A stretch of 36,980 nucleotides of DNA from Pseudomonadota bacterium. GTDB lineage: Bacteria; Pseudomonadota; Gammaproteobacteria; Burkholderiales; JABEVD01. The stretch is from assembly GCA_021848705.1 (NCBI GenBank), contig JAJZTT010000009.1, forward strand, positions 1-36,980. Reading direction: 5' to 3'. This document shows positions 9,937 to 36,851 of the stretch, in pieces. The translations under genes were made by a program, and so were the position numbers. The notes beneath the pieces are model-generated. The model did no database searches, was not told where the DNA came from, and saw nothing but the letters and a program-made list of their open reading frames with translations. How positions within the stretch are numbered: the stretch's first letter is position 1; the number at the start of each line of letters is the position of its first letter.

Positions 9937-11802
9937 ATGTGCGGGATCGCAGGCATATTCAATCTCGACGGGCAGCCCGCTTCCGCGGTGAGTCTGCGCC
10001 ACATGACCGACGCCATCGCCCATCGGGGGCCTGACGGCGAAGGCTCCTATGTGGACGGGTATCTCGCCCTCGGGCACCGGCGCCTCGCGATCATCGATCT
10101 TTCTCCTGCAGGTCACCAGCCCATGGTGTCCCGCAGCGGCAGATTCATTCTCACCTACAATGGCGAGATCTACAATTTCCAGGAAATCCGCGCAGAACTG
10201 GAAAGAAGGGGGCATCTTTTCGTCTCCAGAACCGATTCCGAAGTGGTGTTGAATGCCTATGCCGAATGGGGCGCCGAATGCGTGAGCCGCTTCAACGGCA
10301 TGTTCGCATTCGCGGTGTGGGACAGGCAGGAGAAAAAACTTTTCCTCGCGCGCGACCGGTACGGAATCAAGCCGCTCTATTACAGTTTCCAGGGAAAAAC
10401 CTTTCTTTTCGGTTCCGAGCAGAAGGCGATCCTCGCGCATCCGGAAGCGAAGCGGAATATCGACCTCGAGGCATTGCTGGAATATTTCACATTCCAGAAC
10501 ATTTTCACCGACAGGACGCTCCTGAAGGAAATCAGGCTGCTGCCTGCCGGTTGCCATGCGACCCTTTCGCCCGGGGGAAAATCGCTTGCCGTCACCCGCT
10601 ACTGGGATTACAACTTCGTCGAGCCGGAAAATCCGGCATCCGACGAGGAATACCGGGAAGAGCTCGACAGGCTTTTCAGGCAGGCCATCAACCGTCAGCT
10701 CGTCACCGACGTTGAGCTCGGCTCCTACCTTTCCGGAGGGATGGACTCGGGGTCGATCACAGCGATCGCAGCGTCCCAGCTTCCCTACATCAAGACCTTC
10801 ACTTGCGGATTCGATCTCAATTCCGCTTCAGGAATCGAGCTCGGCTTCGACGAGCGCAGTCGCGCCGAATACATGTCCTATCTCTTCAAGACCGAGCATT
10901 ACGAGATGGTTCTGAAGGCGGGAGACATGGAAAGGGTGTTGCCGAAGCTCGCATGGCACCTGGAGGAGCCCAGGGTCGGTCAGAGTTATCCCAACTATTA
11001 CGCTGCACAGCTTGCCTCCAAGTTCGTCAAGGTGGTTCTTTCCGGAGCGGGCGGGGACGAGCTTTTCGGCGGCTATCCATGGCGGTATTACCGCGCGGTG
11101 GTGAACGACGATTTCGAGCACTACATCGACAAGTATTACAATTTCTGGCAGCGCCTCATTCCGAACAAACAGATCCACGAGGTGTTCAGGCCGGTGTGGC
11201 CGGAAGTGAGCCATGTCTGGACGAGAGACATCTTCAGGGACGTTTTTCAAAGTCATGCTCCGACGCTCACGAGGCCGGAGGACTACGTCAACCATTCACT
11301 CTATTTCGAGGCGAAGACCTTCCTGCACGGTCTGCTCGTGGTGGAAGACAAGCTCAGCATGGCGCATTCGCTGGAGTCCAGGGTTCCCTTCCTCGACAAC
11401 GATCTCGTGGATTTCTCGATGAAGGTTCCGGTCAGGCTGAAGCTCGACAATCTGCACAACGTGGTGCGGATCAACGAGAACGAGCCCGGGCTCAAGACCA
11501 ACAAGTATTTTGAAAAGAACCGGGACGGAAAGCGCCTGCTTCGGGACGCGATGAAGAAATACATTCCCGACGAAATCACCGGGGCGGAAAAACAGGGATT
11601 CTCCGCTCCGGACGCGTCCTGGTTCAAGGGGGAGAGCATCGATTATGTCAGGCAGACCCTTTTCAATTCCAATGCGAAGATCTATTCCTATCTCGACCGC
11701 GAATCGGTGCAGGGCCTGGTGAACGAGCATCTGGAAGGAAAGCAGAACCGCAGGCTGTTTATCTGGTCGCTGCTCAATGTAGAAACCTGGCTTTCCCGGT
11801 AG
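9937..11802 (+). CDS. asnB: Asparagine synthase-type amidotransferase (copy 1)
   Basis: The 621-residue protein begins MCGIAGIF, so Cys2 is the glutaminase nucleophile once Met is removed. The class II glutaminase domain (about 1-200) has HRGPDGEG, LGHRRLAIIDLS and YNGEIYN. The synthetase domain carries the ATP-binding loop SYLSGGMDSGSITAI (about 265-280) and LSGAGGDELFGGY. AsnB makes asparagine from aspartate and glutamine, but homologues in O-antigen operons convert uronic acid carboxyls to uronamides. Given the wbpB/D/E genes upstream, sugar amidation is the likelier role, although this is inference. A second, divergent copy lies downstream. Confidence 0.9.
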   Translation: MCGIAGIFNLDGQPASAVSLRHMTDAIAHRGPDGEGSYVDGYLALGHRRLAIIDLSPAGHQPMVSRSGRFILTYNGEIYNFQEIRAELERRGHLFVSRTDSEVVLNAYAEWGAECVSRFNGMFAFAVWDRQEKKLFLARDRYGIKPLYYSFQGKTFLFGSEQKAILAHPEAKRNIDLEALLEYFTFQNIFTDRTLLKEIRLLPAGCHATLSPGGKSLAVTRYWDYNFVEPENPASDEEYREELDRLFRQAINRQLVTDVELGSYLSGGMDSGSITAIAASQLPYIKTFTCGFDLNSASGIELGFDERSRAEYMSYLFKTEHYEMVLKAGDMERVLPKLAWHLEEPRVGQSYPNYYAAQLASKFVKVVLSGAGGDELFGGYPWRYYRAVVNDDFEHYIDKYYNFWQRLIPNKQIHEVFRPVWPEVSHVWTRDIFRDVFQSHAPTLTRPEDYVNHSLYFEAKTFLHGLLVVEDKLSMAHSLESRVPFLDNDLVDFSMKVPVRLKLDNLHNVVRINENEPGLKTNKYFEKNRDGKRLLRDAMKKYIPDEITGAEKQGFSAPDASWFKGESIDYVRQTLFNSNAKIYSYLDRESVQGLVNEHLEGKQNRRLFIWSLLNVETWLSR

Positions 11803-19018: not shown

Positions 19019-20325
19019 AAAGTAAGATTCGATATGCCGCATCGGCCTTTCTGATCCCTCCTTTTTTGCTGATTTTGACGATTCTGAGACTGGTTTTGCC
19101 CGCAAAGTTCGTCAGCAGGAGTCTTCCGGAAAGGAAGCCCAGGCTGCTCTGGGGCTGCACACCAATTGCAAATATCAAATATTCCTCCCGGGCGATGTCA
19201 CGCATCGGATACCATTCCAGAACCTTCGTTCCGACATTTTATGCAATAGGGGACAAACAGGACTACGATTTGTACCGGAATGAAATCTTTGCGATGTACA
19301 AGTGGTTGCCGAAGCATTTGGTGGCACTGATCGAGCCTTACCTGTCTTTTCTGTATCTTCTCCGCCATTTCGATATTTTTCATTATTTTTTTGACGGGGG
19401 AATTCTTGCGGGTACGCCCCTGAGGTACCTTGAAATCCAGTTGCTGCACTGCTTCAGGAAAAGGGTGGTAGCCATGCCTTATGGTGCGGACGTACACGAC
19501 CTGCAGGGGATGAGGAATAACGTATACAAGTTCGGGCAGATATATCACTACGGGAGGAGGGCGAGCAAAAACAGAAAATCCATACGGAGCTGGATAGATT
19601 ACTTCAGCACGTATGCCGATTTCTGCTTTACCTCGATCAATTTCGATTCTCTGTACCGATGGGATATATTGCCGGTGAGCTACATATCGGTCGATACGGA
19701 TTACTGGACTCCTTCTGCAGAGCATGCACCGATGCATGATGGAAAAAATGGCCCTGTCCTGATTGCGCATAGCCCAAATCACAGAATCATCAAGGGCACG
19801 GATTACCTGATAGCCGCTATCGAGCGACTCAAGACGGAAGGCTATCAGATAGAATTTTTCCTGCTCGAAAAGATGAAAAACACCGAGGTACGCAGAATCC
19901 TCGAGCAAAGCGACATCCTGGTCGAACTGTTGATCTGTGGATACGGCCTCTCCGGCATGGAGGGGTTGGCTCTTGGCAAGCCGGTGATCAGTAATTTTCA
20001 GACCGACACTTCCGTGCTCAGGTATTATTCCTACATGGATGAATGCCCGATCGTTCAGGCGAGCATCGACACGATTTACGAGAAGCTGAAATGGCTGGTG
20101 GAAAACCCGGAAATCAGGGCAGATATCGGAAAGAAAAGCAGGCGCTATGCCGAAAAGTATCATTCCGGTTTGAGTCAGCAAATCATGTGGGGACAGATCT
20201 ACAAAAAGATATGGCATGGCGAGGACGTGGATCTCATGATGCTCTATCATCCCCTATTGGGGAACTATTCCAGACTTTACGATGAAGCCGTGAACGATGC
20301 ATCGGGCGTCGAGCCGAAATGCTGA
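19015..20325 (+). CDS. Glycosyltransferase, GT-B fold
   Basis: The 436-residue protein has a hydrophobic N-terminal stretch (about 10-30) that may anchor it to the membrane. The C-terminal half carries nucleotide-sugar-site features: IAHSPNHRIIKGTDYLIAAI (about 246-265), DILVELLICGYGLSGMEGLALGKPVI and a closing YAEKYHSG. It closely parallels the transferase encoded at 23527-24663, which has HAPSHKGVKGT and LAGWYGGLAVELMALGKPVI, so they look like paralogues adding different sugars. The donor and linkage are not predictable. Base composition is visibly more AT-rich than in the genes upstream. Confidence 0.78.
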   Translation: MKSKIRYAASAFLIPPFLLILTILRLVLPAKFVSRSLPERKPRLLWGCTPIANIKYSSRAMSRIGYHSRTFVPTFYAIGDKQDYDLYRNEIFAMYKWLPKHLVALIEPYLSFLYLLRHFDIFHYFFDGGILAGTPLRYLEIQLLHCFRKRVVAMPYGADVHDLQGMRNNVYKFGQIYHYGRRASKNRKSIRSWIDYFSTYADFCFTSINFDSLYRWDILPVSYISVDTDYWTPSAEHAPMHDGKNGPVLIAHSPNHRIIKGTDYLIAAIERLKTEGYQIEFFLLEKMKNTEVRRILEQSDILVELLICGYGLSGMEGLALGKPVISNFQTDTSVLRYYSYMDECPIVQASIDTIYEKLKWLVENPEIRADIGKKSRRYAEKYHSGLSQQIMWGQIYKKIWHGEDVDLMMLYHPLLGNYSRLYDEAVNDASGVEPKC

Positions 20326-21761
20326 AAAAGCTCGGCAGGGACGCAGTCATTTACGGAGGTGCCGATTTCCTCTTCAAGGCCATCAGCTTTGCCATACTGC
20401 CAGTCTATGTTCGCTTTTTTTCGGTAGCTGATTTCGGTGTGATGTCCATGCTGAGCGTGACGGTCGGCTTGATCGGCATGCTCGCCAACATGGGCGTGAC
20501 CCAGTCCATACAGAGATTTTACTGGGATCAGGAAACACGGCATGAAGAGCGTTCGGTTCTGGTTTCGACAGGGTTGGTACAGCTTGTTTCCCTGGGCGTC
20601 ATCGCCCTTCTGATTATTCTGGTGCCAGCATATCTCGAGCAGCAGCAAATGCTTGCGCGTTATGGCATCGACTGGCAGCTTGCGCTTCTCGCGCTTTTCA
20701 CTATTATTCCCGATCAGATCGTTCAGTATGTACTGGACACGATCAGGCTGCATTTCTCGCCGATAAAATTCTTCCTGATTTCCTTTTCGAAAAACCTGCT
20801 CGGCGTACTGATTGGATTATGGTTGATCATCGTTTCGCAAAAAGGATTGTACGGCTATTTCGAGGGCATGCTGCTTGCCTCTACGGCAACCGTCCCGCTC
20901 GCGCTCTGGTTCATCAGAAAGGAACTGGTCCTTCAGGTGGATTTACCCATGCTCCGGAAAATTTTTGCATATGGACATCCCTTCGTTTTCGCAGGAATGG
21001 CGTACTGGATATTCGGATCGATGGACAGATGGATGCTTGCCGAACTTGGCAACACGCGAGAAGTCGGCCTTTATAGCGTGGCATTCAAGGTTTCGACGCT
21101 GATCGGTTTTGTTACGGCAGCCTTTTCCCAAGCCTGGAGTCCTTATGTAGTCAAGATGATGAGCGAAGACAAGGAATATCGGAAATCCTTCAGCAGGGTA
21201 TTTTCCCTCTGGTATTTTATCCTCGCAATGATCGGCTTACTGATATCGCTTTTTGCTCGTGAAATTCTGATGCTACTCACACCGAGGGTTTACTGGGATG
21301 CATCGGGTGTGCTATCTGCTGTCACCATGGGGCTGGTTCTGCAGGGAACCACCCAGATTACGGCAATTGGTATTTCATTGGAAAGCAGAACTAGGCTGCT
21401 GACCCACATAGCATGGCTGACGGCGTGTGTAAATTTCGGGTTGAACTATATCCTGATTCCCCGCTTTGGCGCGGAAGGTTCGGCATGGGCGACTCTTGTT
21501 TCCTACGCAATGCTGACATCCATTTTTCTTTTCTGGACCCAGAGACTCCATCCCATTCCACTGGAAAGAAAAAAGTTACTTTACAGTACGTTTCTGGTTG
21601 CAGCAGGTCTTCTTTCTCCTCTCAGCAATTCATGGAACTGGTATTATTCGCCCATTGCCAAATTCGCCCTTCTGATCTTGCTGGTCAAAGGTGCGCATAC
21701 AATGGGTATAATCAACGTTAATGCATTGAGGCAATTACTCGGGAAGAAAAAAAATGCGTAG
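20319..21761 (+). CDS. wzx: Wzx-type lipid-linked oligosaccharide flippase
   Basis: This 480-residue protein is polytopic with about 12 hydrophobic helices, the usual Wzx length, and starts with the family-like AVIYGGADFLFKAISFAILP followed by FFSVADFGVMSM. Wzx moves undecaprenyl-PP-linked repeat units across the inner membrane. Charged residues inside helices and the YWIFGSMDRWMLAELGN segment (helix 7 region) are typical of the MOP/PST superfamily. It overlaps the upstream transferase by seven bases and the downstream SDR by eight. The symbol is functional: Wzx sequences vary widely. Confidence 0.88.
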   Translation: MLKKLGRDAVIYGGADFLFKAISFAILPVYVRFFSVADFGVMSMLSVTVGLIGMLANMGVTQSIQRFYWDQETRHEERSVLVSTGLVQLVSLGVIALLIILVPAYLEQQQMLARYGIDWQLALLALFTIIPDQIVQYVLDTIRLHFSPIKFFLISFSKNLLGVLIGLWLIIVSQKGLYGYFEGMLLASTATVPLALWFIRKELVLQVDLPMLRKIFAYGHPFVFAGMAYWIFGSMDRWMLAELGNTREVGLYSVAFKVSTLIGFVTAAFSQAWSPYVVKMMSEDKEYRKSFSRVFSLWYFILAMIGLLISLFAREILMLLTPRVYWDASGVLSAVTMGLVLQGTTQITAIGISLESRTRLLTHIAWLTACVNFGLNYILIPRFGAEGSAWATLVSYAMLTSIFLFWTQRLHPIPLERKKLLYSTFLVAAGLLSPLSNSWNWYYSPIAKFALLILLVKGAHTMGIINVNALRQLLGKKKNA

Positions 21762-24664: not shown

Positions 24665-26677
24665 ATGTGCGGAATTTCGGGATATATCGCATTTTCGCCG
24701 CAGCCCGCTTCGCTGATCCGGAAGATGACCGATATCATCGCCCATCGTGGCCCGGACGACGAAGGGTTCGTTCTTTTTTCTGATGCCGAAGCAATTTCTC
24801 TCGGAGGCAAGGACACGCCGGAATCCTCTTATTCGGCCGGGCTCCCCTTTTCGCCATCGGCAGGGATAGCTGAGCATGAAACGAGGGAATTTTCCCTGGC
24901 CCTCGGGCACAGACGCCTGTCCATCGTAGACGTATCCGCAGCAGGACACCAGCCGATGTGCACGCGAGATGGACGATTCTGGATTTCCTACAACGGGGAG
25001 ATTTACAACCATATCGAATTGCGAGCCGAACTGGAAGGGCTGGGTCATTCCTTTCGCTCCCATTCAGACACGGAAGTGATTCTCGCCGCCTACAGGGAAT
25101 GGGGGGAGAAGTGTCTTTCCAGGTTCAACGGCATGTTCGCCATCCTGATCCACGACCGGGAGAGGAAAACCCTTTTCGTCGCGCGCGACCGATTCGGAGT
25201 GAAGCCGCTGTATTATCGCATCACGGGGCAGGGGATTGCCTTCGCTTCCGAAATCAAGCAGTTCACATTGCTTCCGGACTGGAAGTCCGAGATCAACGGG
25301 CAGCGAGCTTACGATTTCCTGGTTTGGGGCGTGATCGATCACACCGACGAAACCCTTTTCTCGAACGTGTATCAGCTTCGCCCGGGACATTATGCGATGC
25401 TGGAGGCAAGTCGGCCTTTCTCCGTTCGGGACGGAAGGTTGACGACCACGCAATGGTACGAATTGCAACCGGTTTCTTTCCAGGGATCATTCGAGGATGC
25501 CGCTGCCGAATTCAGGCGATTGCTGGAAGAATCCGTCAGCCTGAGGCTGCGCGCGGACGTACCGGTTGGTTCATGCCTTTCCGGCGGACTGGACTCCTCT
25601 TCCATCGTCTGTTTGATGAACGAATCGCTGAGAAAACAGGACGCGCATGCGCTCCAAAAAACTTTCTCCGCCTGCTCCGAAGTGGGGCGTTTCGACGAGC
25701 GTTCCTGGATCGACGAGGTGGTCGGAAAAACAGGCGTCGATGCGCATTATGTATATCCTTCCCTTGACCGGTTGTTCGAGGAATCCCCGGAGATCACCTG
25801 GCATCAGGACGAACCTTTCGGATCAACCAGCATTTACGCGCAATGGAATGTTTTCAGGCTGGCTGCAGGAAACGGGGTCAAGGTGATGCTGGACGGGCAG
25901 GGAGCGGACGAACAGCTTGCCGGATATCATGGTTTCTTCTCGCCGAGACTCGCGTCCTTGCTGCGTTCCCTCAAGTGGATTGACCTCGTTCGTGAAGTCT
26001 CGGGCATGAGGCGGCTGCACGGTTATTCGCCGATGAAGGCTGCCCAGTACCTGGCAAACGGCGTTTTTCCACAGGCGCTAAGGGATCTGCTCAGGCGCAC
26101 CCAGGGGTTGACGCATCGCGCCCCGGACTGGCTGAATGCGGATGCGCTCAACTGCATCCCGGCCGACCCTTTTGCAGCACTGGACGGAAAAAAATCCTCG
26201 AGCATCCAGGGATTTTCGAAGGTGCAGTTGACCAGTTCCACATTGCAGATGCTGCTGCACTGGGAAGACCGGGATTCGATGGCCCATTCGATCGAAGCCA
26301 GAGTTCCCTTCCTGGATTACCGCCTGGTGGAATTCGTGCTCGGACTTCCGGACGATTTCAAGCTTGCGGAAGGACTGACCAAGCGCGTGCTGCGCGTCGG
26401 CATGAGCGGTATCCTGCCTGACAGAATTCGCGACCGTGTGGACAAGCTCGGCTTCGTGACTGCTGAAGAGGTATGGATGCGGGAGAAGGCAAGGGATGCT
26501 TTCCGAGCCCGACTCGATGCGGCAATCGATCTTTCGAACGGGATCCTGAAGCCTTCTTCGAGGAACCTGTTCGAGGAAATGGCCGAAGGCATCCGGCCTT
26601 TCAACTTCCAGGTATGGAGAATGATCAGCTTCGGCGAATGGCTGGACAGGTTCGGGATCGGAATCCGGTCCATATGA
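24665..26677 (+). CDS. asnB: Asparagine synthase-type amidotransferase (copy 2)
   Basis: At 670 residues this copy is longer than the first because of an insert in the glutaminase domain (about residues 35-75, between DDEGFVLF and LALGHRRLSIVD). It keeps the catalytic Cys2 (MCGISGYI), HRGPDDEG, YNGEIYN, the ATP loop CLSGGLDSSSIVCLM (about 302-316) and MLDGQGADEQLAGY, where copy 1 has GAGGDELFGGY. It therefore should bind glutamine and ATP, but the difference near the second ATP loop hints at a different substrate. Sugar uronamide formation is a good guess by location. It overlaps the next transferase by ATGA. Confidence 0.88.
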   Translation: MCGISGYIAFSPQPASLIRKMTDIIAHRGPDDEGFVLFSDAEAISLGGKDTPESSYSAGLPFSPSAGIAEHETREFSLALGHRRLSIVDVSAAGHQPMCTRDGRFWISYNGEIYNHIELRAELEGLGHSFRSHSDTEVILAAYREWGEKCLSRFNGMFAILIHDRERKTLFVARDRFGVKPLYYRITGQGIAFASEIKQFTLLPDWKSEINGQRAYDFLVWGVIDHTDETLFSNVYQLRPGHYAMLEASRPFSVRDGRLTTTQWYELQPVSFQGSFEDAAAEFRRLLEESVSLRLRADVPVGSCLSGGLDSSSIVCLMNESLRKQDAHALQKTFSACSEVGRFDERSWIDEVVGKTGVDAHYVYPSLDRLFEESPEITWHQDEPFGSTSIYAQWNVFRLAAGNGVKVMLDGQGADEQLAGYHGFFSPRLASLLRSLKWIDLVREVSGMRRLHGYSPMKAAQYLANGVFPQALRDLLRRTQGLTHRAPDWLNADALNCIPADPFAALDGKKSSSIQGFSKVQLTSSTLQMLLHWEDRDSMAHSIEARVPFLDYRLVEFVLGLPDDFKLAEGLTKRVLRVGMSGILPDRIRDRVDKLGFVTAEEVWMREKARDAFRARLDAAIDLSNGILKPSSRNLFEEMAEGIRPFNFQVWRMISFGEWLDRFGIGIRSI

Positions 26678-27897
26678 AATCCTCGCTGCAGGCCATGAAG
26701 GTGCTGTACCTCCACCCCGCTTCCGCCTTCGGCGGGGCATCCAAAAGCCTGGTCGAGCTTTACCGGGCTTTTCCGGAGAATTCCGTGAAAGCCACGGTGG
26801 TTTGTCCTTCCGGTCAGGCAGCGGAACAGTTCCGCATCGCCGGAATGGAGGTGGTCGAGTGTGCAGGGCTTGCGCAATGGGACAACACGCGCTTCGGCCA
26901 TTACCGGGGAAAGCGCTGGCTGGTGCTGATGAGGGAATGGCTGCTCTGGATTCCTACGGTCCTCACCCTGCTCAGGGTTGCCAGGAGTGGACAGTACGAC
27001 CTGATCCATGCCAACGAGATCACCCTGCTTCCCGCCGCGGTTCTGGCAAGAAAAATCATGCATCTTCCATTGGTGGTGCATGTCCGCTCGTTGCAGCGAA
27101 TGCCGGGGAGCGGAAGGATCACGGACTGGATCAACCGCATGCTTTCGACTGCACAGGTGGTCATCGCGATCGACCGGACCGTGGCGCGTACCCTGCCGGC
27201 AGAATTGAATGTGGAAGTGATACACAACGGCATCAAGGTTCCAGAAAATGTGGAACGCAACGCTGAAACGGACGGTGTTCTTCATGTTGCCATGGTGGGC
27301 GGGTTGCTGCGCATGAAAGGCGTGTACGAATTCGTCGAGGCGGCAAGGCTATGCCGCGACCGGGGACTTTCGGTCAGGTTTCTTTTGGCCGGAGAGAATC
27401 CCAGGAATCTCAAGGGGCTCATGAAATGGCTGGTCGAGTGGACGGATCTCGCCCACGATGTGCGCAGCGACCTGGAAGCCTATGTTGCCCGCAACGATCT
27501 GGGAGAATTCGTAGAGCTGCTGGGTTTCGTCCGCGAGGTGGGGGCGCTTTACAGAAAAATCGATCTGCTCTGCTTCCCGTCCCATCTGGATGCGGCGGGG
27601 CGCCCGGTGTTCGAAGCTGCATTTTACGGCGTACCTTCCCTGGTGGCCGCTGACACTCCAGAACCCGATACCATCGTTGACGGAGAGACCGGCCTCTGCA
27701 TTCCCCCGAGAAACCCGCAAGCCATCGCAGATGCGGTCGAACTGCTGGCAAACCGGCGGGATGAATTGAGGCGCATGGGGCAAAATGCGCGGAAGCTTGC
27801 GATGGAGCATTTCGACATCGAACGAAATGCGCAGAAGGTGCTCGATCTTTATCGGCATCAGGCCGGGTTGCAGGAACAGGATTCCGGAAATGGCTGA
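26674..27897 (+). CDS. GT4-family glycosyltransferase
   Basis: The 407-residue GT-B protein starts with VLYLHPASAFGGASKSLVEL (acceptor-side glycine loop) and contains VIHNGIKVPE and a donor half beginning VAMVGGLLRMKGVYEFVEAA. In the donor-binding stretch the usual E-x7-E motif reads D-x7-E (DAAGRPVFE), followed by AAFYGVPSLVA and TIVDGETGLCIPP, all typical of GT4. Retaining transfer from a nucleotide sugar to a lipid-linked acceptor is expected at the cytoplasmic face of the inner membrane. The ATG overlaps the asnB stop; the much longer upstream frame lies within asnB. Confidence 0.85.
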   Translation: MKSSLQAMKVLYLHPASAFGGASKSLVELYRAFPENSVKATVVCPSGQAAEQFRIAGMEVVECAGLAQWDNTRFGHYRGKRWLVLMREWLLWIPTVLTLLRVARSGQYDLIHANEITLLPAAVLARKIMHLPLVVHVRSLQRMPGSGRITDWINRMLSTAQVVIAIDRTVARTLPAELNVEVIHNGIKVPENVERNAETDGVLHVAMVGGLLRMKGVYEFVEAARLCRDRGLSVRFLLAGENPRNLKGLMKWLVEWTDLAHDVRSDLEAYVARNDLGEFVELLGFVREVGALYRKIDLLCFPSHLDAAGRPVFEAAFYGVPSLVAADTPEPDTIVDGETGLCIPPRNPQAIADAVELLANRRDELRRMGQNARKLAMEHFDIERNAQKVLDLYRHQAGLQEQDSGNG

Positions 27898-30232
27898 AAT
27901 GAGCCTGATCTTTCCCATGGCGTTCATGGCCAACAATTTCGCCATGACCATTCTGCTGATCCTGCTCGGACTTGCAGACAAGTCCGGCACGGCAGCGGAG
28001 ATCGGGATCGTCCAGGGAGTCACGCTCGCCCTTTTCTATGCATTTTCAGCCAATGCCAGGAGCCTGATCCTGAATCCCTCGTCAGGGATTTCTTCTCGTT
28101 CTGTCCTGGCCGCTCGCCTGATGCTGATGGTTCCCCTTTCATTGACCGCCTATGCGGTCAGCATCGTTTCCGTCGGGATCGATCCGGTCCTGGCCGTCGT
28201 GCTGATCCTGAGGCGTTGCGTGGAATGGATCGGAGAGGTGCATCTGAGCGAGATGGAACTGCTGGACGACAGAAAATTCGCCAGAATCTTCCTGATGATG
28301 CAGGCGATCCCGTTTGTGCTGATACTGGGGTGGATGGTCTTCGGGCTATCGCACCTCACGATGATCCTGACGCTGTGGGCGCTTTTGCCGCTTTCATTGA
28401 GTGTCGGCTACCTGAAAGTGAATGCTCCTGCATTTCACGGCACGCTGGTGAAAGTGGGCGGCGCTATCCTGCCCAATCTCGGATCGACAGCCATCATCGG
28501 GATCACGGTCTACCTCTTTCGCCTGCTCATTCTGCTTCATGCAGGAAGGCAGATTGCCGGTGACCTGTTTGCCAGTTTTGCGATCGGCGGGTTGACCGGA
28601 GGGGTATTTGCCAATGCGCTCGGCCCCAGCATCGTGCTCCACGAGCAGCGCAGCGGCAGGAAGCAGTATCCCTTGATGTTGAAGGCTGCGCTTTTTCTCA
28701 GCCTGGCCTGCGGGGTGTTCGTTTTTCTCATCGCAAGAATGGAACCTTCCCTGCTGGTCTGGACACGGAAATCGACCGGATTCTGGGAGGCGGTCGGATT
28801 GTCTCTGATCGGCGGGGTTATCATGGCCCAGGCGCAAAGGATCCGCTTCCGGCTTTTGCAGCACGACGAGGAATTCGGAGTGTTCGGTCCGGATGTCATG
28901 ATGAACGTCATGATCGTTGCGGCCGTGCCCTTCACCTATTACCTGCTGGGAACCGAAGCAATGGGTGGGCTTTACCTGCTGAGCGCTATACTGGCATTGC
29001 TGCTATATTCGAGTGCGAAAAAATGGATGTCGGTCCAGCGCAACATGACCTGGATCATGGCGGGGCTTGCCGCCCTTCTGCTGATGCCGATCTTCGTTCA
29101 AACCGGCAATGGCCTGTTCCTGGACCATACACTGCATTACGATACCGGCGGGAAACTGACGAACTTGCCGCTTCCCTTGTCCGTGGTGGCTTGTTTCGCC
29201 GGAATCATTCTGCTCGGCGAATACGAAGGCGCTTTCCTGTCCTTTTCGTTCATCTTCCTGACGTGTTTGCTCATGGCGTTTGGTGCGATGCTTTCCTCGA
29301 AAGTCGGACCGTTGCAGGAATCCGCCAAGCTGATGCAGATGATCCAGTTCATCCTGCCCATGTTCGCGCTGGTGTTGGGACAATTCTTCGTAGCGCAAAA
29401 TGGAAAGAGTCGCTTCGAAAGGGCTTTTCTTTACCTCCTGGCATTCATCGTGCCGTTGCATCTGCTGGCATCATGGTGGCAGGGTTCGTTGATCCTGTTG
29501 CCATTCGTCGGCCTGTTCAGCATTTATCAGTATATGGAGTATGTCCCGGGCATCCTGATCTGCGCCTACCTGGTTTCCCTGTATTCCCTATGGGATGCTG
29601 CGATCGAACGTAGGATCCTCCTGATCCTGGCGCCGCTGATGGCGGTCTATGCCGCAGCCTCGATGTCTGCGACGGCAATGACGTTGTTGTTGGCCGGATT
29701 CGTTGGATTGGGATATATTCGCTGGCGGCTCCATGCAGAGAAAATCATTCCGGCGGTTCTTCTGGTCGTGACGGCATTGGCAGGGGGCTACCTGCATTTC
29801 GAGAAAATACATGCAGCAACCGTTGGTTACACCGAAAAGGAAATGGCCCTGCCTGTTCCGGCCGGGGGAAGGACGGGCGTGATTTCCGCAACGGACATAT
29901 TTCTGGTGGGGCACGAAGGAATTTCAGAATTGAGGCATTCCGGCGACCGGAGCTATTACCGGGATCTGTTCTACAATTTCGGGCTGCTTGCATCCCTGCC
30001 TGTCGCAGGGCTTCTGGGCTATACCCTTTTCCTGGCTTACAGGCACAGGGCGGCCATATTTTCTTCAACTGCCCTGGCCGGGCTTTGTCTGGTGACGCTA
30101 TTCGAGCTTTTCGTCGACAATTCCATGAAAGCAGGGATGAGGCAGCCCTATCCGGGAATCTTCACCTTCTTTTTATGGGGAATGCTTTTGAGCCAGTTGC
30201 TTGGATTGAAAAAGGCCGGAGAGGCGCAATGA
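27890..30232 (+). CDS. Large polytopic membrane protein, flippase-like and polymerase/ligase-like halves fused
   Basis: This 780-residue protein is nearly twice the length of a usual Wzx or Wzy and is almost wholly hydrophobic, with about 20 or more likely membrane segments. The first ~375 residues look like a Wzx/PST half (for example VLILRRCVEWIGEVHLSEME near 104-123). The second part, from about 383, has the layout of an O-antigen polymerase/ligase: regular helices, a long periplasmic-type loop around 670-720 with HEGISELRHSGDRSYYRDLF, then NFGLLASLPVAGLLGYTLF and FVDNSMKAGMRQPYPGIFTF. This reading is by pattern only. There is no frameshift and the sequence is continuous. It overlaps its neighbours at both ends. 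Confidence 0.72.
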   Translation: MAEMSLIFPMAFMANNFAMTILLILLGLADKSGTAAEIGIVQGVTLALFYAFSANARSLILNPSSGISSRSVLAARLMLMVPLSLTAYAVSIVSVGIDPVLAVVLILRRCVEWIGEVHLSEMELLDDRKFARIFLMMQAIPFVLILGWMVFGLSHLTMILTLWALLPLSLSVGYLKVNAPAFHGTLVKVGGAILPNLGSTAIIGITVYLFRLLILLHAGRQIAGDLFASFAIGGLTGGVFANALGPSIVLHEQRSGRKQYPLMLKAALFLSLACGVFVFLIARMEPSLLVWTRKSTGFWEAVGLSLIGGVIMAQAQRIRFRLLQHDEEFGVFGPDVMMNVMIVAAVPFTYYLLGTEAMGGLYLLSAILALLLYSSAKKWMSVQRNMTWIMAGLAALLLMPIFVQTGNGLFLDHTLHYDTGGKLTNLPLPLSVVACFAGIILLGEYEGAFLSFSFIFLTCLLMAFGAMLSSKVGPLQESAKLMQMIQFILPMFALVLGQFFVAQNGKSRFERAFLYLLAFIVPLHLLASWWQGSLILLPFVGLFSIYQYMEYVPGILICAYLVSLYSLWDAAIERRILLILAPLMAVYAAASMSATAMTLLLAGFVGLGYIRWRLHAEKIIPAVLLVVTALAGGYLHFEKIHAATVGYTEKEMALPVPAGGRTGVISATDIFLVGHEGISELRHSGDRSYYRDLFYNFGLLASLPVAGLLGYTLFLAYRHRAAIFSSTALAGLCLVTLFELFVDNSMKAGMRQPYPGIFTFFLWGMLLSQLLGLKKAGEAQ

Positions 30233-31683
30233 ATTGCGAATTCTGCAGGAAGAACGTCATGATCCGGACGGGGTTGTTTCTGTTCCTTGCGATGGAAGCC
30301 GTTCTGTCGATATGGACCTGCAGGGAATATGCAGGCCACGTTTACATCTATCTGATGTTCACTCTGGTTGCCAACCTCCTGCTGTTTTCCGGGTTCAGGA
30401 AAAAGGCGATTTTCTTCGATGCCTTCATCGGAGCGTTTTTCTGGCTCGGATTCTGGCTGAAGCTGAGCGTCCGCGTTTCATTTTCCGGGGGGATGTTTTT
30501 CGAGGCGGTCGGGCAGTTCGACGGTTCCGGGGCTGCATTCGATCGCGCCCTGCTGGTGGCTACCTGCGGAATGTCAGGGTTTCTCCTGGCGAGCCTCCTG
30601 AGGGAATGGTTTTTCAACTATCCGGAAAGGATCGAAGAGACTTCCCTGGAGGGATTGTCCGGATTCTACCGGGATCATCGAAAGTGGGTGCTTCCGGCAT
30701 TTTTCATCCTGTTCATGCTGGTTGCCGCCAGCAATGTCCATCTGGGCATCTACCAAAGGGGAGGAGTCACGAAAACTTTCCTTCCATTCGGACTCAACGG
30801 GGTCTTCAAATGGCTGCTGCTTTTCGGCCTCGCGTCGATTTCTGCTTTGATCCTGAGATTCGAGCAGGAAGCTGGAAAGGAGACCTCTTATCCGGTGGTG
30901 ATCCTGTGTCTGCTGGAAGGATTCTCATCGAATGTTTCCATGCTGAGCCGGGGGATGATTCTGAATTCCGGTGCCCTGATTTACGGTCTCTTGAGAGGGC
31001 GGAGTCATTACTCGACCGGTGATGGAATCCGTTTTTTTGCGAAAACCACCCTGCTTCTGGGGTTTTTGTTCGCCATTTCCGTTTTCGGCGTCAACTACCT
31101 GAGAAGCTATGTCTATCTTGCGGATGTCCATCCGGTCAGTCAGGGAAGCGCAAAGGCGACGGGCAGGCATCTCGAGGAGGCGAAGGACATGACCACCCCG
31201 CTGTTCGTCGACCGCTGGGTTGGAATGGAAGGCGTGATGGCTGTTTCCAGCTATTCGGGACTCGGCATGGATCTCTGGAAGAAGGCATGGAAGGAATCCT
31301 ACAACGAAAACCAAACCAGCTTCTACGACAGGACCTTGATCCGCTCGCCCTACCTCGATACCGACAAGTCTTTGCATCATTACATCTCCCTTCCCGGGAT
31401 CGTCGCTTTCTTCTTTTATCCCGGTTCCTTCGTGCTGCTGTTTTTCTCGACTTTCGCCTTGGGCATGCTGGCAGCCTTGTTGGAAGTGATGACTTACCTA
31501 TTGGGCGGAAGAAATATTGTGCTGTGCTCGCTGCTTGCAGAAGTGGTCGCCTTCCGGTATGCGAGCTTCGGATATGTTCCTGCGCAGTCCTACCTGTTGT
31601 TCGGAACCATCGTTCTGAACCTGGTCCTGATTCATCTGGCGAACAGGATTTTGACCGGAAGGACGCCGGGATTTGGCAGATGA
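30229..31683 (+). CDS. Polytopic membrane protein, candidate Wzy polymerase
   Basis: The 484-residue product has about ten hydrophobic segments and a large soluble loop (about 345-400: GSAKATGRHLEEAKDMTT through SYNENQTSFYDRTL) between late helices, the general layout of O-antigen repeat-unit polymerases. The loop is rich in Arg, Tyr and Asn as in Wzy periplasmic loops. Wzy sequences diverge so far that family membership can only be inferred. It overlaps the preceding fused protein by ATGA. A Cys pair CEFC at residues 3-6 is unusual for the family. Alternative readings are an O-antigen ligase or an unassigned envelope protein. Confidence 0.62.
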   Translation: MNCEFCRKNVMIRTGLFLFLAMEAVLSIWTCREYAGHVYIYLMFTLVANLLLFSGFRKKAIFFDAFIGAFFWLGFWLKLSVRVSFSGGMFFEAVGQFDGSGAAFDRALLVATCGMSGFLLASLLREWFFNYPERIEETSLEGLSGFYRDHRKWVLPAFFILFMLVAASNVHLGIYQRGGVTKTFLPFGLNGVFKWLLLFGLASISALILRFEQEAGKETSYPVVILCLLEGFSSNVSMLSRGMILNSGALIYGLLRGRSHYSTGDGIRFFAKTTLLLGFLFAISVFGVNYLRSYVYLADVHPVSQGSAKATGRHLEEAKDMTTPLFVDRWVGMEGVMAVSSYSGLGMDLWKKAWKESYNENQTSFYDRTLIRSPYLDTDKSLHHYISLPGIVAFFFYPGSFVLLFFSTFALGMLAALLEVMTYLLGGRNIVLCSLLAEVVAFRYASFGYVPAQSYLLFGTIVLNLVLIHLANRILTGRTPGFGR

Positions 31684-31696
31684 GGAGGGCGCAAGC

Positions 31697-32914
31697 ATGA
31701 GGATTCTGGTCGTCACCCAGTATTTCTGGCCGGAAAATTTCAGGATCAACGATCTCGTGCTGGGATTGCAGCAGCGCGGTCATCGTGTGACGGTGCTCAC
31801 GGGAATCCCCAACTATCCGGGTGGTCGCTTTTTCCCGGGATATGGATTTTTCGCGAAAAGGAAGGAAGATTACCAAGGGGTGAAGGTGCTGAGGGTGCCC
31901 ATGCTGGCCCGCGGAAAGAAGGGGGCCGCCCGCCTTTTCCTGAATTATTTGAGCTTCGCCTTTTCGGCCAGCCTGTTCGCGCCTTTTCTTTGCCGCGACG
32001 AGTACGATGCGATTTTCGTGTACGAGCCTTCCCCCATCACGGTGGGACTCCCGGCGCTGGCATTGAAGAGACTGAAGAAGCTTCCACTCCTGTTCTGGGT
32101 GCAGGATCTTTGGCCGGAAAGCCTTTCCGCAACCGGCGCGGTGAAATCGGCCCGGATCCTGGAAATGGTTGAGAAGCTGGTGCGTCATATTTATCGCCGA
32201 TGCGATTTGATCCTGGTGCAGTCCGAGGCTTTCATTCCTTCGATAGAAAAATTGGGGGTCGGGCGGGATCGAATTGTATACTTCCCCAACAGTGCGGAGG
32301 ATGTCTACCAGTCCGGCGGACTTCCGGAAGATTCCGTCGTGATCCCCGAAGGTTTCAGGGTCATGTTCGCCGGCAACATCGGCGTGGCGCAGGATTTCGG
32401 AACGATTCTGGATGCCGCCGAGAGGCTGAAACCGTATCCGGATATCAAATGGCTGATTCTCGGCGACGGAAGGATGTCTCATTGGGTGAAGGAACAAATC
32501 GGGGCGCGCGGCCTGGAAGATTCGGTCCACCTGCTGGGAAGGCACGATGTCGGGAAAATGCCCTGGTTCTTTTCCAGGGCCGATGTCATGCTGGTCACCC
32601 TGAAAAAGGAGCCGATCTTTGCCCTGACGATACCGTCCAAAGTGCAATCCTACCTTGCCTGCGGCAAACCCATCGTGGCTGCCCTCGACGGGGAGGGTGG
32701 CAGGGTGATCGAAGAGGCGGATGCGGGCGTGGTAGTCGCTTCAGAGGATGCAAAGGGGCTCGCCGATGCGGTGCTTCGCATGTACAGGATGCCTTGCGGC
32801 GAGCGGGAGGCGATGGGAATGAACGGACTTCGATATTTTCAGGCCAATTTCGAAAGGACCATGCTCCTCGACCGACTGGAAGCATGGTTTCATGAAAAGA
32901 GGGAACTAATATGA
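31697..32914 (+). CDS. WbuB-like GT4 glycosyltransferase
   Basis: The 405-residue transferase opens MRILVVTQYFWPENFRIND and then TGIPNYPGG, typical of the WbuB/WcaI-type group that adds amino-6-deoxy sugars in O-antigens. Later motifs include LFWVQDLWPESLSATGA, FPNSAEDVY, MFAGNIGVAQDFGTILDAA and PSKVQSYLACGKPIVAA in the donor domain. WbuB in E. coli O26 adds L-FucNAc; here the neighbouring genes make an L-configured 2-acetamido-6-deoxy sugar, so transferring that sugar is a reasonable inference. A GAGGAGGG ribosome-binding site precedes the ATG, one of the few clear ones in the operon. It overlaps the reductase gene by ATGA. Confidence 0.88.
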   Translation: MRILVVTQYFWPENFRINDLVLGLQQRGHRVTVLTGIPNYPGGRFFPGYGFFAKRKEDYQGVKVLRVPMLARGKKGAARLFLNYLSFAFSASLFAPFLCRDEYDAIFVYEPSPITVGLPALALKRLKKLPLLFWVQDLWPESLSATGAVKSARILEMVEKLVRHIYRRCDLILVQSEAFIPSIEKLGVGRDRIVYFPNSAEDVYQSGGLPEDSVVIPEGFRVMFAGNIGVAQDFGTILDAAERLKPYPDIKWLILGDGRMSHWVKEQIGARGLEDSVHLLGRHDVGKMPWFFSRADVMLVTLKKEPIFALTIPSKVQSYLACGKPIVAALDGEGGRVIEEADAGVVVASEDAKGLADAVLRMYRMPCGEREAMGMNGLRYFQANFERTMLLDRLEAWFHEKRELI

Positions 32915-33777
32915 AAGTGCTGGTTCTGGGGGCGAGCGGAATGCTCGGCAATGCGGTGACCCGCGTTCTCAGCGAAAACAGGGATTGGGAAGTGTTCGGC
33001 ACGCTTCGCTCCTGGGGCGTGGAGAGATTCTTCCCAAGGGAGATAGCGAAGTCGCTGGTCATCGGTGTCGATGTGGATAATCCTGACACGGTGGTCAGGG
33101 CTTTCGACCAGATCCGCCCCGACGTGGTGGTCAACTGCATCGGGCTGGTCAAGCAACTGGCCGATGCAAACGATCCCCTGCTCGCAATCCCGATCAATGC
33201 GCTCCTTCCTCACAGGCTGGCGAGGATTTGCGAACTGTCCGGGGCGAGGCTGATCCACATGAGCACGGACTGCGTTTTCTCGGGCGTAAAGGGTGGGTAT
33301 CGGGAATCCGACCTCGCCGATGCACGTGACCTCTATGGCCTTTCGAAATATCTGGGCGAAGTGCATTATCCACATGCGATCACCTTGCGTACCTCGATCA
33401 TCGGTCACGAATTGTTGAGTGCACACAGCCTGGTCGACTGGTTCCTGTCGCAACAGGGAAAATGCAACGGCTATACCCGGGCGATCTTTTCCGGATTGCC
33501 CACCGTGACGCTGGCAGAAATCATTCGCGATGTCGTGATTCCCAGGCCGGATTTGCAGGGGGTGTATCATGTGGCCGCGAATCCGATTGCCAAATATGAT
33601 CTGCTGAAGCTGATCGCAAAAGTTTATGGAAAAGAGATCGAAATTTTTCCCGACGAACGCCTGGTGATCGATCGTTCCCTGAATGCGGAAAGATTCAGGG
33701 AGGCGACCGGATATGTCGCCCCGGAATGGCCGGAACTGGTTGCGGCCATGCACGAATTCTGGAACCGGAGCAAATGA
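32911..33777 (+). CDS. RmlD-like NDP-sugar reductase (SDR), probable L-QuiNAc/L-RhaNAc pathway
   Basis: The 288-residue protein has VLVLGASGMLGNAV (NAD-binding), STDCVFSGVKGGYRESD and the YxxxK motif YGLSKYLGE, all as in RmlD (dTDP-4-dehydrorhamnose reductase). It lacks the C-terminal cupin domain that WbjC/FnlB/CapF proteins have, and is about 80 residues shorter. In the UDP-L-QuiNAc route (WbvB/WbvR/WbvD type) the reductase is an RmlD homologue, while the L-FucNAc route uses a cupin-fused reductase. With the next two genes it forms the standard three-gene set. Only the UDP-linked keto sugar is inferred as substrate. Confidence 0.85.
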   Translation: MKVLVLGASGMLGNAVTRVLSENRDWEVFGTLRSWGVERFFPREIAKSLVIGVDVDNPDTVVRAFDQIRPDVVVNCIGLVKQLADANDPLLAIPINALLPHRLARICELSGARLIHMSTDCVFSGVKGGYRESDLADARDLYGLSKYLGEVHYPHAITLRTSIIGHELLSAHSLVDWFLSQQGKCNGYTRAIFSGLPTVTLAEIIRDVVIPRPDLQGVYHVAANPIAKYDLLKLIAKVYGKEIEIFPDERLVIDRSLNAERFREATGYVAPEWPELVAAMHEFWNRSK

Positions 33778-34787
33778 TGTTCAAGGACAAGGTACTGATG
33801 ATTACTGGCGGCACGGGTTCCTTCGGGAATACCGTGCTGAAGCGTTTTCTTTCGACGAATGTGAGCGAGATCCGCATCTACAGCCGCGACGAGAAGAAGC
33901 AGGAAGACATGAGGATCGCGCTCAACGACGACAAGCTGAAATTCTATATCGGCGACGTGCGTGATCACGACAGCCTGCATCAGGCGATGAAAGGCGTCGA
34001 TTACGTTTTCCATGCGGCAGCATTGAAGCAGGTTCCTTCCTGCGAGTTCTACCCGATGGAAGCGGTGCGGACCAATGTAATGGGGACGGAAAACGTGCTC
34101 AGTGCGGCGACCGCTAACGGCGTCTCCCGCGTCATCGTGCTCAGCACCGACAAGGCGGTCTATCCCATCAATGCCATGGGGATTTCCAAGGCAATGGCGG
34201 AAAAGCTCATGGTCGCCAAGGCGAGAATGCAGCGCAAGGGCGAGACGGTGTTCTGCGCGACGCGCTACGGAAATGTCATGGCCTCCCGCGGATCGGTCAT
34301 CCCGCTCTTCGTTTCGCAATTGAAGGAAGGCAAGCCCCTCACCGTCACCGATCCGAACATGACCCGGTTTTTGATGTCTCTCGAGGATTCGGTGGATCTC
34401 GTCCTCTACGCCTACGAACACGGGCATCAGGGCGACATTTTCGTGCAGAAGGCGCCGGCTTCCACCATCGCGGTTCTCGCGCAGGCGCTGAAGGAACTCT
34501 TCGGGCGCGACAACGAGATCCGCGTGATCGGCACGAGGCATGGAGAAAAGCTCTACGAATCCCTCATTTCCCGGGAGGAAATGGCCCATGCCCGCGACAT
34601 GGGGGACTATTACCGGATTCCTGCCGACAACCGCGATCTCAATTATGCGAAATATTTCAGCGAAGGCGAGGAAAAAATCTCGAGCCTCGATGATTACACC
34701 TCCCACAATACCAATCGCCTGAACGTGGAAGAAGTCAAGAATCTGTTGCTGAAACTCGATTACATCAGGGAAGAACTCGATGCTTAA
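33774..34787 (+). CDS. wbjB: UDP-GlcNAc 4,6-dehydratase/5-epimerase (WbjB/FnlA/CapE type)
   Basis: The 337-residue SDR converts UDP-GlcNAc to a UDP-2-acetamido-2,6-dideoxy-L-hexos-4-ulose, the first step of L-FucNAc or L-QuiNAc formation. It has MITGGTGSFGNTVL at the N-terminus, FHAAALKQVPSCEFYPMEAV and STDKAVYPINAMGISKAMAE, where the usual YxxxK is MxxxK (MGISK), a hallmark of this subgroup. TRYGNVMASRGSVIPLF follows. The ATG overlaps the reductase stop (ATGATG; the second ATG is equally possible). It overlaps the 2-epimerase gene by eight bases. Confidence 0.95.
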   Translation: MMFKDKVLMITGGTGSFGNTVLKRFLSTNVSEIRIYSRDEKKQEDMRIALNDDKLKFYIGDVRDHDSLHQAMKGVDYVFHAAALKQVPSCEFYPMEAVRTNVMGTENVLSAATANGVSRVIVLSTDKAVYPINAMGISKAMAEKLMVAKARMQRKGETVFCATRYGNVMASRGSVIPLFVSQLKEGKPLTVTDPNMTRFLMSLEDSVDLVLYAYEHGHQGDIFVQKAPASTIAVLAQALKELFGRDNEIRVIGTRHGEKLYESLISREEMAHARDMGDYYRIPADNRDLNYAKYFSEGEEKISSLDDYTSHNTNRLNVEEVKNLLLKLDYIREELDA

Positions 34788-35904
34788 GGTCATGACCATC
34801 GTGGGTACCCGCCCCGAACTCATCAAGATGAGCAGGGTGATCGCAGAATTCGATGTGCACACCCACCATGTACTGGTGCACACCGGGCAGAATTACGATT
34901 ACGAACTCAACCAGGTCTTCTTCGAAGACCTGGGGATCAGAAAACCCGATCATTTTCTGGAAGCGGTGGGAGAAAACGCGGCGCAGACGATCGCACGGGT
35001 GATCGAAAAATCGGATGCGGTGATGGAGAAGGAAAATCCGGATGCTGTGATGCTGTACGGCGACACCAATTCCTGCCTTGCCGTGATTTCCGCGAAACGC
35101 CGCAAGATCGCGGTTTTTCACATGGAAGCGGGAAACCGATGCTTCGACCAGCGTGTGCCCGAAGAGCTGAACCGCAAGGTTCTCGATCATCTCTCCGACA
35201 TCAACCTGGTGCTCACCGAGCATGCGAGAAGATACCTCGTCGCCGAAGGAATTCGCCCCGAGACCATCATCAAGACCGGCTCGCACATGCGCGAGGTGCT
35301 GGACCATTACATGCCGAAGATCGAAGCTTCGGACGTGCTCGATCGGATGGAACTCGAAACAGGAAAATTTTTCATCGTGAGCGCGCACCGGGAAGAGAAC
35401 GTCGATTCTCCGCAGAATGTAACGGACATGATCGAAACCTTGAATGCGCTTGCAGCCGAATACCGTGTTCCAGTTATCGTTTCCACCCATCCGAGAACCC
35501 GCAAGCGCCTCGACTCGATGGAACTCGGTTCCCTCGATCCGTTCATCCGGTTCATGAAACCCTTCGGCTTCTGCGATTATGTCAGGCTGCAGATGGAAGC
35601 GCTTTGCGTGGTTTCAGACAGCGGCACCATCACCGAGGAGGCCTCCCTCCTCAATCTTCCTGCGATCACCATTCGCAATGCCCATGAGCGCCCGGAGGGG
35701 ATGGATGTCGGGACGCTCATCATGAGCGGGTTGAAGAAGGGGCGGGTGCTCGATGCGGTGAAGGTGACCTTGTCGCAATACGATCGGGAGAGGCGCGTGA
35801 TGCAGCCTGTGGCCGATTACGAGGCGACTTCGGTTTCGAAGCAGGTGCTCAGGGTGGTGATGAGCTACACCGATTACGTCAGGCGCACCGTATGGTCCAT
35901 GTGA
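34780..35904 (+). CDS. wbjD: UDP-2-acetamido-2,6-dideoxy-L-hexose 2-epimerase (WbjD/WbvD type)
   Basis: The 374-residue non-hydrolysing 2-epimerase resembles WecB. Family motifs are GTRPELIKMS near the N-terminus, VHTGQNYDYELNQVFF, HMEAGNRCFDQRVPEE with catalytic acidic residues, VSAHREENVDSP and SDSGTITEEASLLNLP. It inverts C2 of the L-sugar made by the two genes before it, yielding UDP-L-QuiNAc or L-FucNAc depending on the reductase. CFDQRVPEE, where WecB has a TGD-type motif, matches the WbjD group. It has no upstream gap and overlaps the previous gene. Confidence 0.93.
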   Translation: MLKVMTIVGTRPELIKMSRVIAEFDVHTHHVLVHTGQNYDYELNQVFFEDLGIRKPDHFLEAVGENAAQTIARVIEKSDAVMEKENPDAVMLYGDTNSCLAVISAKRRKIAVFHMEAGNRCFDQRVPEELNRKVLDHLSDINLVLTEHARRYLVAEGIRPETIIKTGSHMREVLDHYMPKIEASDVLDRMELETGKFFIVSAHREENVDSPQNVTDMIETLNALAAEYRVPVIVSTHPRTRKRLDSMELGSLDPFIRFMKPFGFCDYVRLQMEALCVVSDSGTITEEASLLNLPAITIRNAHERPEGMDVGTLIMSGLKKGRVLDAVKVTLSQYDRERRVMQPVADYEATSVSKQVLRVVMSYTDYVRRTVWSM

Positions 35905-36851
35905 TGCTCGTCACCGGGGCGAACGGCTTCGTCGGACGCGTGCTTTGCAGCAGCCTCGCCGAAAGGGGATTTTCCGTGAAGGGGGCGGTGCGAAGTGAAA
36001 AGGCACAGCTTTCGCAAGGAATCGAAAAAGCGGTCGTCGGAGATATCGACTCAAAAACGGACTGGTCGGATGCATTGCGAGGAATCGACTGCGTGATCCA
36101 TCTCGCCGCCCGCGTCCATGTCATGCAGGAAGAGAGCGCCGATCCGCTTGCGGAATTCAGGAAAGTGAATGTCGCGGGAACGAGGAAACTCGCCGAGGCT
36201 GCGGTAGCTGCAGGCGTGAAGCGCCTCGTCTATGTCAGTTCGATCAAGGTGAACGGCGAGAAGACGGAAGGGAAACCCTTCACGGAAGCGGACAGCCCTG
36301 ATCCTCAGGATCCCTACGGAATTTCGAAACGGGAGGCGGAGGATGCGCTTCGTGAAATTTCGCAAAGAACCGGGCTCGAAGTGGTGGTCGTGCGGCCCCC
36401 GCTCGTCTATGGCCCGGGAGTGGGCGGAAACTATCTCAGGATGCTCGGCCTCGTGAAGAAGGGGATTCCCCTGCCGTTTGCCTCGATCGATAATCGGCGC
36501 AGCATGATCCATGTCGGCAATCTCGCAGACGCCCTGATTCTCTGCGCAATCCATCCGGATGCCGGGGGAGAAACCTTTCTCGTGAGCGACGATGTTCCGG
36601 TTTCGACGTCCGATCTTTTGAAAAGTCTCGCCAGGGCGATGGGAAAGAAACCTGCCCTCTGGCGCTGCCCTGTATCCATACTTGCTCTTCTGGGCAAGAT
36701 TGCAGGAAAATCGGCGGAAATCGACCGTCTTTCCGGTTCCCTCGAAGTCGATTCCTCCCATATCCGCAAAAAACTCGGATGGAAGCCCCCTCATCCCCTG
36801 GAAGACGGGCTGATCGAAACGGTTCACTGGTTTCATACAGTAAGCCGCTGA
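35892..36851 (+). CDS. WbpV-like NDP-sugar 4-reductase/epimerase (SDR)
   Basis: The 319-residue extended SDR has LVTGANGFVGRVLCSSL, LVYVSSIKVNGEKTEG, YxxxK in DPYGISKREAE, VVVRPPLVYGPGVGGNYLRM and SIDNRRSMIHVGNLADALI. It matches the WbpV/WbjF group, which reduces the C4 keto group of UDP-4-keto-6-deoxy-GlcNAc in D-QuiNAc/D-FucNAc formation and often lies beside a WbpL-type transferase. A GTG at 35901 overlapping the previous stop as GTGA is an alternative start that trims three residues. It is the last plus-strand gene before the insertion-like sequence; the transferase that normally follows is not visible. Confidence 0.85.
   Translation: MVHVMLVTGANGFVGRVLCSSLAERGFSVKGAVRSEKAQLSQGIEKAVVGDIDSKTDWSDALRGIDCVIHLAARVHVMQEESADPLAEFRKVNVAGTRKLAEAAVAAGVKRLVYVSSIKVNGEKTEGKPFTEADSPDPQDPYGISKREAEDALREISQRTGLEVVVVRPPLVYGPGVGGNYLRMLGLVKKGIPLPFASIDNRRSMIHVGNLADALILCAIHPDAGGETFLVSDDVPVSTSDLLKSLARAMGKKPALWRCPVSILALLGKIAGKSAEIDRLSGSLEVDSSHIRKKLGWKPPHPLEDGLIETVHWFHTVSR

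Follow-up and report, generated by a model that had tools for sequence, protein, structure and literature searches.

A continuous gene joining a Wzx-like flippase domain to a WaaL/Wzy-like domain in an O-antigen gene context

The stretch of DNA analysed here, which we call the window (36,980 nucleotides from a draft 2.8-Mb assembly in 263 contigs), carries a plus-strand gene of 780 codons (27890-30232) that opens with an ATG at 27890, closes with a TGA ending at 30232, and has zero internal stops. A sequence-only reading had described a flippase-like and a polymerase/ligase-like half in one membrane protein with no stop or frameshift between them, and the frame is indeed open from end to end, with coding-type base composition and intact across all 780 codons. 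Because homologue alignments to the fusion protein begin at Met4, the start may instead lie at 27899, which would give 777 residues and is the choice that the homologues favor. The start is overlapped by the stop of the group 1 glycosyltransferase gene directly upstream (26473-27897, counted from the first ATG of its frame, the true start probably being later), and the following gene begins at 30229 via an ATGA overlap. That gene (30229-31683) encodes a polytopic membrane protein of 484 residues, p484, a possible second polymerase that tracks the fusion across genomes. Next on the same strand come genes for a WbuB-like group 1 glycosyltransferase (31673-32914, true start probably 31697), an FnlB/RmlD-like reductase of the L-FucNAc/L-QuiNAc pathway (32911-33777), an FnlA-like UDP-GlcNAc dehydratase/epimerase (33726-34787), an FnlC-like UDP-sugar 2-epimerase (34780-35904), and an NAD-dependent epimerase/dehydratase (35892-36851). 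The first four of these are conserved neighbors: across loci the fusion adjoins a WbuB-like glycosyltransferase and FnlB/FnlA/FnlC, often with the epimerase, WbpL and WbpM too. Gene content thus suggests an O-antigen module with a sugar of the L-FucNAc or L-QuiNAc type. The same locus of the window holds a separate canonical Wzx flippase (20319-21761, plus strand; PF13440/PF01943). It also holds two asparagine-synthase-like proteins (9937-11802 and 24665-26677), which suggest amidated sugars.

We built one AlphaFold2 model of the full-length protein on a 37-row alignment (pLDDT 89.2, pTM 0.91), and in it each half gives its expected fold. The match to the MOP superfamily stops at about residue 383 and the match to WaaL begins at residue 380, which places the domain boundary where it had been proposed from the letters (about 375/383). 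Twelve predicted helices span residues 7-377 and, in the model, would return the chain to the cytoplasmic side ahead of a linker of about 8 residues that leads into the C-half. Foldseek gives the model no E-value better than 0.018, which is weak, yet its top-ranking matches belong to the same families. A sequence search of the PDB gave nothing relevant, a viral structure library gave no useful match, and the fusion was unmatched in a plasmid collection.

The N-half (residues 1-380, 27890-29029) has the features of a MOP-superfamily, Wzx-like flippase of twelve helices, as had been supposed for the first 375 or so residues. In VIA-align comparisons, residues 1-383 match the MATE structure 5y50 (Z 22.2), WzxE 9g9n (Z 20.2) and MurJ 6nc6 (Z 18.3), and across the WzxE/MATE/MurJ comparisons Z is mostly 15-22 over about 330-370 residues. 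Against a canonical Wzx profile the N-half aligns over its full length (hhalign E 1.9e-5), and a second Wzx set gives E 2.3e-5; control comparisons (cross-matches between the halves and an MraY-type control) give E 0.1 or more. No Pfam flippase family recognises it: when the halves were searched with Pfam and NCBIfam, the N-half had no match, and the matches of the C-half were weak and family-dependent. Within the fusion family Asn55/Arg57 and Arg211 are invariant. Arg211 is aligned with WzxE Arg239, and Arg57 sits in an AN-x-R motif like that at WzxE Asn42/Arg44, the profile alignment not pairing the two; Arg44 and Arg239 are the Arg pair at the periplasmic end of WzxE, and WzxE Arg44 is essential (PMC11706664). 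The N-half is a putative flippase for units linked to Und-PP.

The C-half (residues 381-780, 29030-30229) looks like a GT-C/SEDS-type O-antigen polymerase/ligase of the WaaL/Wzy_C fold, again as had been suggested. Residues 380-776 align with WaaL 7tpg_B over 318 residues (VIA-align Z 21.2, rmsd 4.6), and profile comparisons give E 1.5e-6 over the full length with WaaL-type proteins including E. coli WaaL, and E 3.6e-4 with a Wzy_C set. Neither half matches the family of the other in cross-comparison. Pfam Wzy_C (PF04932) is detected in 16 of 39 homologous C-halves, with a best value of 2.2e-9, scores lying under the Pfam curated cut-off in both cases for which they were shown; the window copy's own C-half has no Pfam Wzy_C match. 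In the majority of homologues the sequence reads ...R..YW...PSAHNYYLD..., which aligns to the Arg and His-Asn motifs of E. coli WaaL. WaaL and Wzy have a common fold, and the fold is for that reason compatible with either a polymerase or a ligase role.

How widespread is this arrangement? An alignment-based scan of 84,980 species, one genome per species, returned 43 loci; a single-sequence query of the same species genomes gave no match. Nearly all 43 loci encode the two halves without a break in the reading frame, giving about 40 fused homologues with the halves in the same order. They come from Methylophilaceae, Herbaspirillum, Hydrogenophaga, Pseudomonas, other Proteobacteria, Mariprofundus, and MAGs labelled Planctomycetes, Verrucomicrobia and Elusimicrobia, with 32-49% full-length identity to the window protein. 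Closer to the source the fusion is matched in 5 of 399 genomes of its own order and 7 of 369 of its class, 4 of the latter full-length or nearly so. These homologues indicate that the fusion family is old and widely distributed. In some members a GT2 domain is added at the N terminus (1233 aa; L003/L078 and L077, with L080 cut by the contig end), and in one a GT4 domain at the C terminus (L084, 1208 aa). In the GT2-Wzx-Wzy chains of L003/L078 and L080 the periplasmic loop of the C-half has well over 100 extra residues between the last helices. The expectation that the halves might also occur as separate genes held for the C-half, which stands alone in four loci (L013 2100-3539, L089 5878-7317, L158 12931-14235 and L160 11220-12506) in genes that begin near the domain boundary; the N-half was not seen alone among the homologue loci recovered, a provisional absence.

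Several loci show further rearrangements. Pseudomonas L082 (1989-4459 and 5842-8517) has a second fusion copy, which breaks into two frames before the active-site region is reached, and Pseudomonas L088 has an intact fusion plus a partial second copy, an N-terminal fragment at 5944-6405. In L047 of genome G742, a locus with an ordinary Wzx, a stretch just before wbuB (7097-7153) corresponds to the final 19 residues of the fusion at E of about 1e-4 and is possibly the scar of a lost fusion gene. Two deltaproteobacterial loci with the Wzx-Wzy fusion encode other fused membrane proteins of 971 and 976 aa (L158 2477-5392 and L160 16891-19821), whose N-terminal portion is polytopic (possibly GT-C/PMT-like, unmatched in Pfam) and leads into a flippase of the MurJ family (Pfam MurJ E 3e-47 and 3e-53).

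Whether the fusion has competitors for its putative roles varies among genomes. Judging by gene content it is not always the sole flippase, as a canonical Wzx lies in or near the same locus in the window, in most Pseudomonas and in some other genomes; G089 has a strong Wzx match on a different contig. A 27-row Wzx profile detected no other Wzx in G044, G767, G771, G782, G783 and G786, and in G631 the sole match outside the fusion is MurJ-type. Herbaspirillum sp. Sphag64 (L055) is one strain with no other Wzx detected. These absences are provisional because first-look filters can miss a divergent Wzx: a PF13440 search overlooked the copy in G053, which hmmscan and the Wzx profile then picked up. 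Separate ligase-type Wzy_C genes are present in G044, G053, G089 and G096, and G000 has further Wzy_C genes. With the fusion as the only Wzx candidate in several genomes and a separate ligase besides, the C-half is best read as a polymerase.

The other candidate for the Wzy role is p484, which we regard as a possible competitor. It has no Pfam family, and its model (pLDDT 77) shows no clear fold match, with Z only 5.5 to WaaL. Strong p484 matches occur in exactly the 4 fusion-bearing genomes of the 369-genome class sample, with distant relatives in only two others, a co-occurrence somewhat biased by a profile built from fusion-adjacent copies. It is next to the fusion in many genomes, and at least 13 genomes have the fusion without a p484 match.

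It is conceivable, if unlikely, that the flippase is joined instead to a ligase or to a glycosyltransferase that adds only once. The C-half would then transfer a flipped glycan a single time, to lipid A-core or as a branch, without polymerisation, leaving p484 as the true Wzy. Among solved folds the ligase WaaL is indeed nearest to the C-half, whose His and Arg motifs fall at the WaaL positions, and this reading would also accommodate both the adjacency of p484, with its co-occurrence in 4 of 4 sampled genomes, and the additional canonical Wzx of many loci. But the fold is one that Wzy has in common with WaaL, the fusion loci that we pursued in more detail have in addition a Wzy_C ligase-type gene that is separate and scores better, and the genomes without p484 would be left with no other Wzy candidate among the genes seen.

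The window copy itself departs from the family in one place. The model confirms the large loop that had been noticed ahead of the final helices (about residues 646-690); this loop has the lowest pLDDT and by helix counting is probably periplasmic. The active-site loop as a whole (residues 646-700, 29825-29989) is remodelled in alignment with homologues and WaaL: where most homologues read PSAHNYYLD the window copy reads SGDRSYYRD, so that Arg replaces the catalytic-type His (WaaL His338), and the R...YW (Arg-Trp) block is absent. His338 has been proposed as the base in WaaL, with Asp262 as the equivalent residue in RodA (PMC10449877). With N-half divergence corrected for, the window copy's loop has diverged further than that of any other among 37 sequences. 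The His is kept in 30 of 39 aligned C-halves; several other lineages have a different residue there, and the N-half tree implies about six independent changes. Replacement is seen in 8 of 24 members that bear p484 versus 0 of 15 without a close p484 (Fisher 0.015, relatedness uncorrected), which is suggestive of p484 relieving the C-half of catalysis. The window C-half may therefore no longer catalyse, and because of the lost His and Arg-Trp block together with the p484-linked replacements, an altered C-half acting with p484 seems more likely here than a normal polymerase.

One might go further and see the window fusion as a remnant that is decaying or has only a structural part left to play, its C-half dead and the gene being lost. 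The Arg for His, the missing Arg-Trp block, the exceptional divergence of the loop, and the frameshifted or truncated second copies elsewhere (L082, L088) are all compatible with decay. We nonetheless find this quite improbable, as the frame is intact and coding-type in composition over its 780 codons, the C-half outside the loop is conserved to an ordinary degree, like other members, and the other lineages with a replaced His have intact frames. That an assembly or gene-calling artefact, or a frameshift, joined two adjacent genes, as one might fear of a draft in 263 contigs, we reject as having practically no chance, given that some 40 homologues share the join across different assemblies and phyla.

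We therefore think it fairly probable that the gene is a natural single-polypeptide Wzx-Wzy whose C-half, in this genome with its altered polymerase site, more likely serves as a partner or docking domain, with p484 supplying or replacing the polymerase step. The N-terminal MOP domain (1-380) would bring a repeat unit linked to undecaprenyl-PP, its sugars probably including L-FucNAc or L-QuiNAc, to the periplasmic side, and the C-terminal GT-C/SEDS-type domain (381-780) of the same chain would take the flipped unit for polymerisation, the direct hand-over that the sequence-only reading had proposed; ligation to lipid A-core would probably fall to a separate WaaL. The bolder version, in which a widespread one-chain Wzx-Wzy family with some GT-Wzx-Wzy members includes a window lineage that ceded its polymerase site to p484 and retained a flippase plus docking domain, we hold to have an even chance.

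Why might such a protein matter? In a 2015 analysis only the Wzy-Wzz interaction was confirmed among Wzx, Wzy, Wzz and WaaL, and physical coupling of Wzx to Wzy was proposed and unproven (PMC4863624); a natural flippase-polymerase fusion makes that coupling directly testable. Plant-associated Pseudomonas have been reported without Wzx and Wzy despite heteropolymer O-chains, that of P. cichorii containing L-FucNAc/D-QuiNAc (PMC6804347). As Pfam assigns the N-half no family, the fusion could have been missed in Pseudomonas, and lying there beside L-FucNAc-type genes it may fill the reported gap. If so, a one-chain Wzx-Wzy family would explain strains thought to lack both proteins, and the O-antigen pathway would have a flippase and polymerase that are covalently joined in nature. 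The individual domains belong to well-known families, and the natural fusion of the two appears undescribed: we found no description of one in the open-access literature searched.

Flippase and polymerase of the O-antigen pathway are normally separate proteins. The N-half resembles Wzx/PST flippases (E. coli WzxE, PDB 9G9N) in the twelve helices of its MOP fold (residues 1-383, Z 20.2), in an invariant Arg that lines up with WzxE Arg239, and in an AN-x-R motif similar to that at WzxE Asn42/Arg44; unlike them it has no Pfam Wzx family, shows about 12-15% identity, and is always fused to a second domain in the set seen. The C-half shares its fold with WaaL/Wzy_C (PF04932, PDB 7TPG) and Wzy/SEDS polymerases, and the R...W and HN motifs of most homologues align to E. 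coli WaaL. It differs from WaaL in being fused behind a flippase, in the window copy's loss of the His and Arg-Trp block, and in having separate ligase-type genes in the fusion loci checked. As in a standard Wzx/Wzy-dependent O-antigen cluster, related fusion loci have glycosyltransferases, nucleotide-sugar genes, WbpL/WbpM-type genes and a WaaL-type ligase nearby, whereas here one gene would cover flippase and polymerase, some genomes have no second Wzx detected, and a GT2 or GT4 domain is fused in a few. The closest parallel in pairing is MurJ with FtsW/RodA in peptidoglycan synthesis, where a MOP flippase and a GT-C/SEDS polymerase likewise act in sequence on Und-PP substrates; those are separate proteins, whereas in the fusion the two are covalently joined, apparently for O-antigen-type repeat units.
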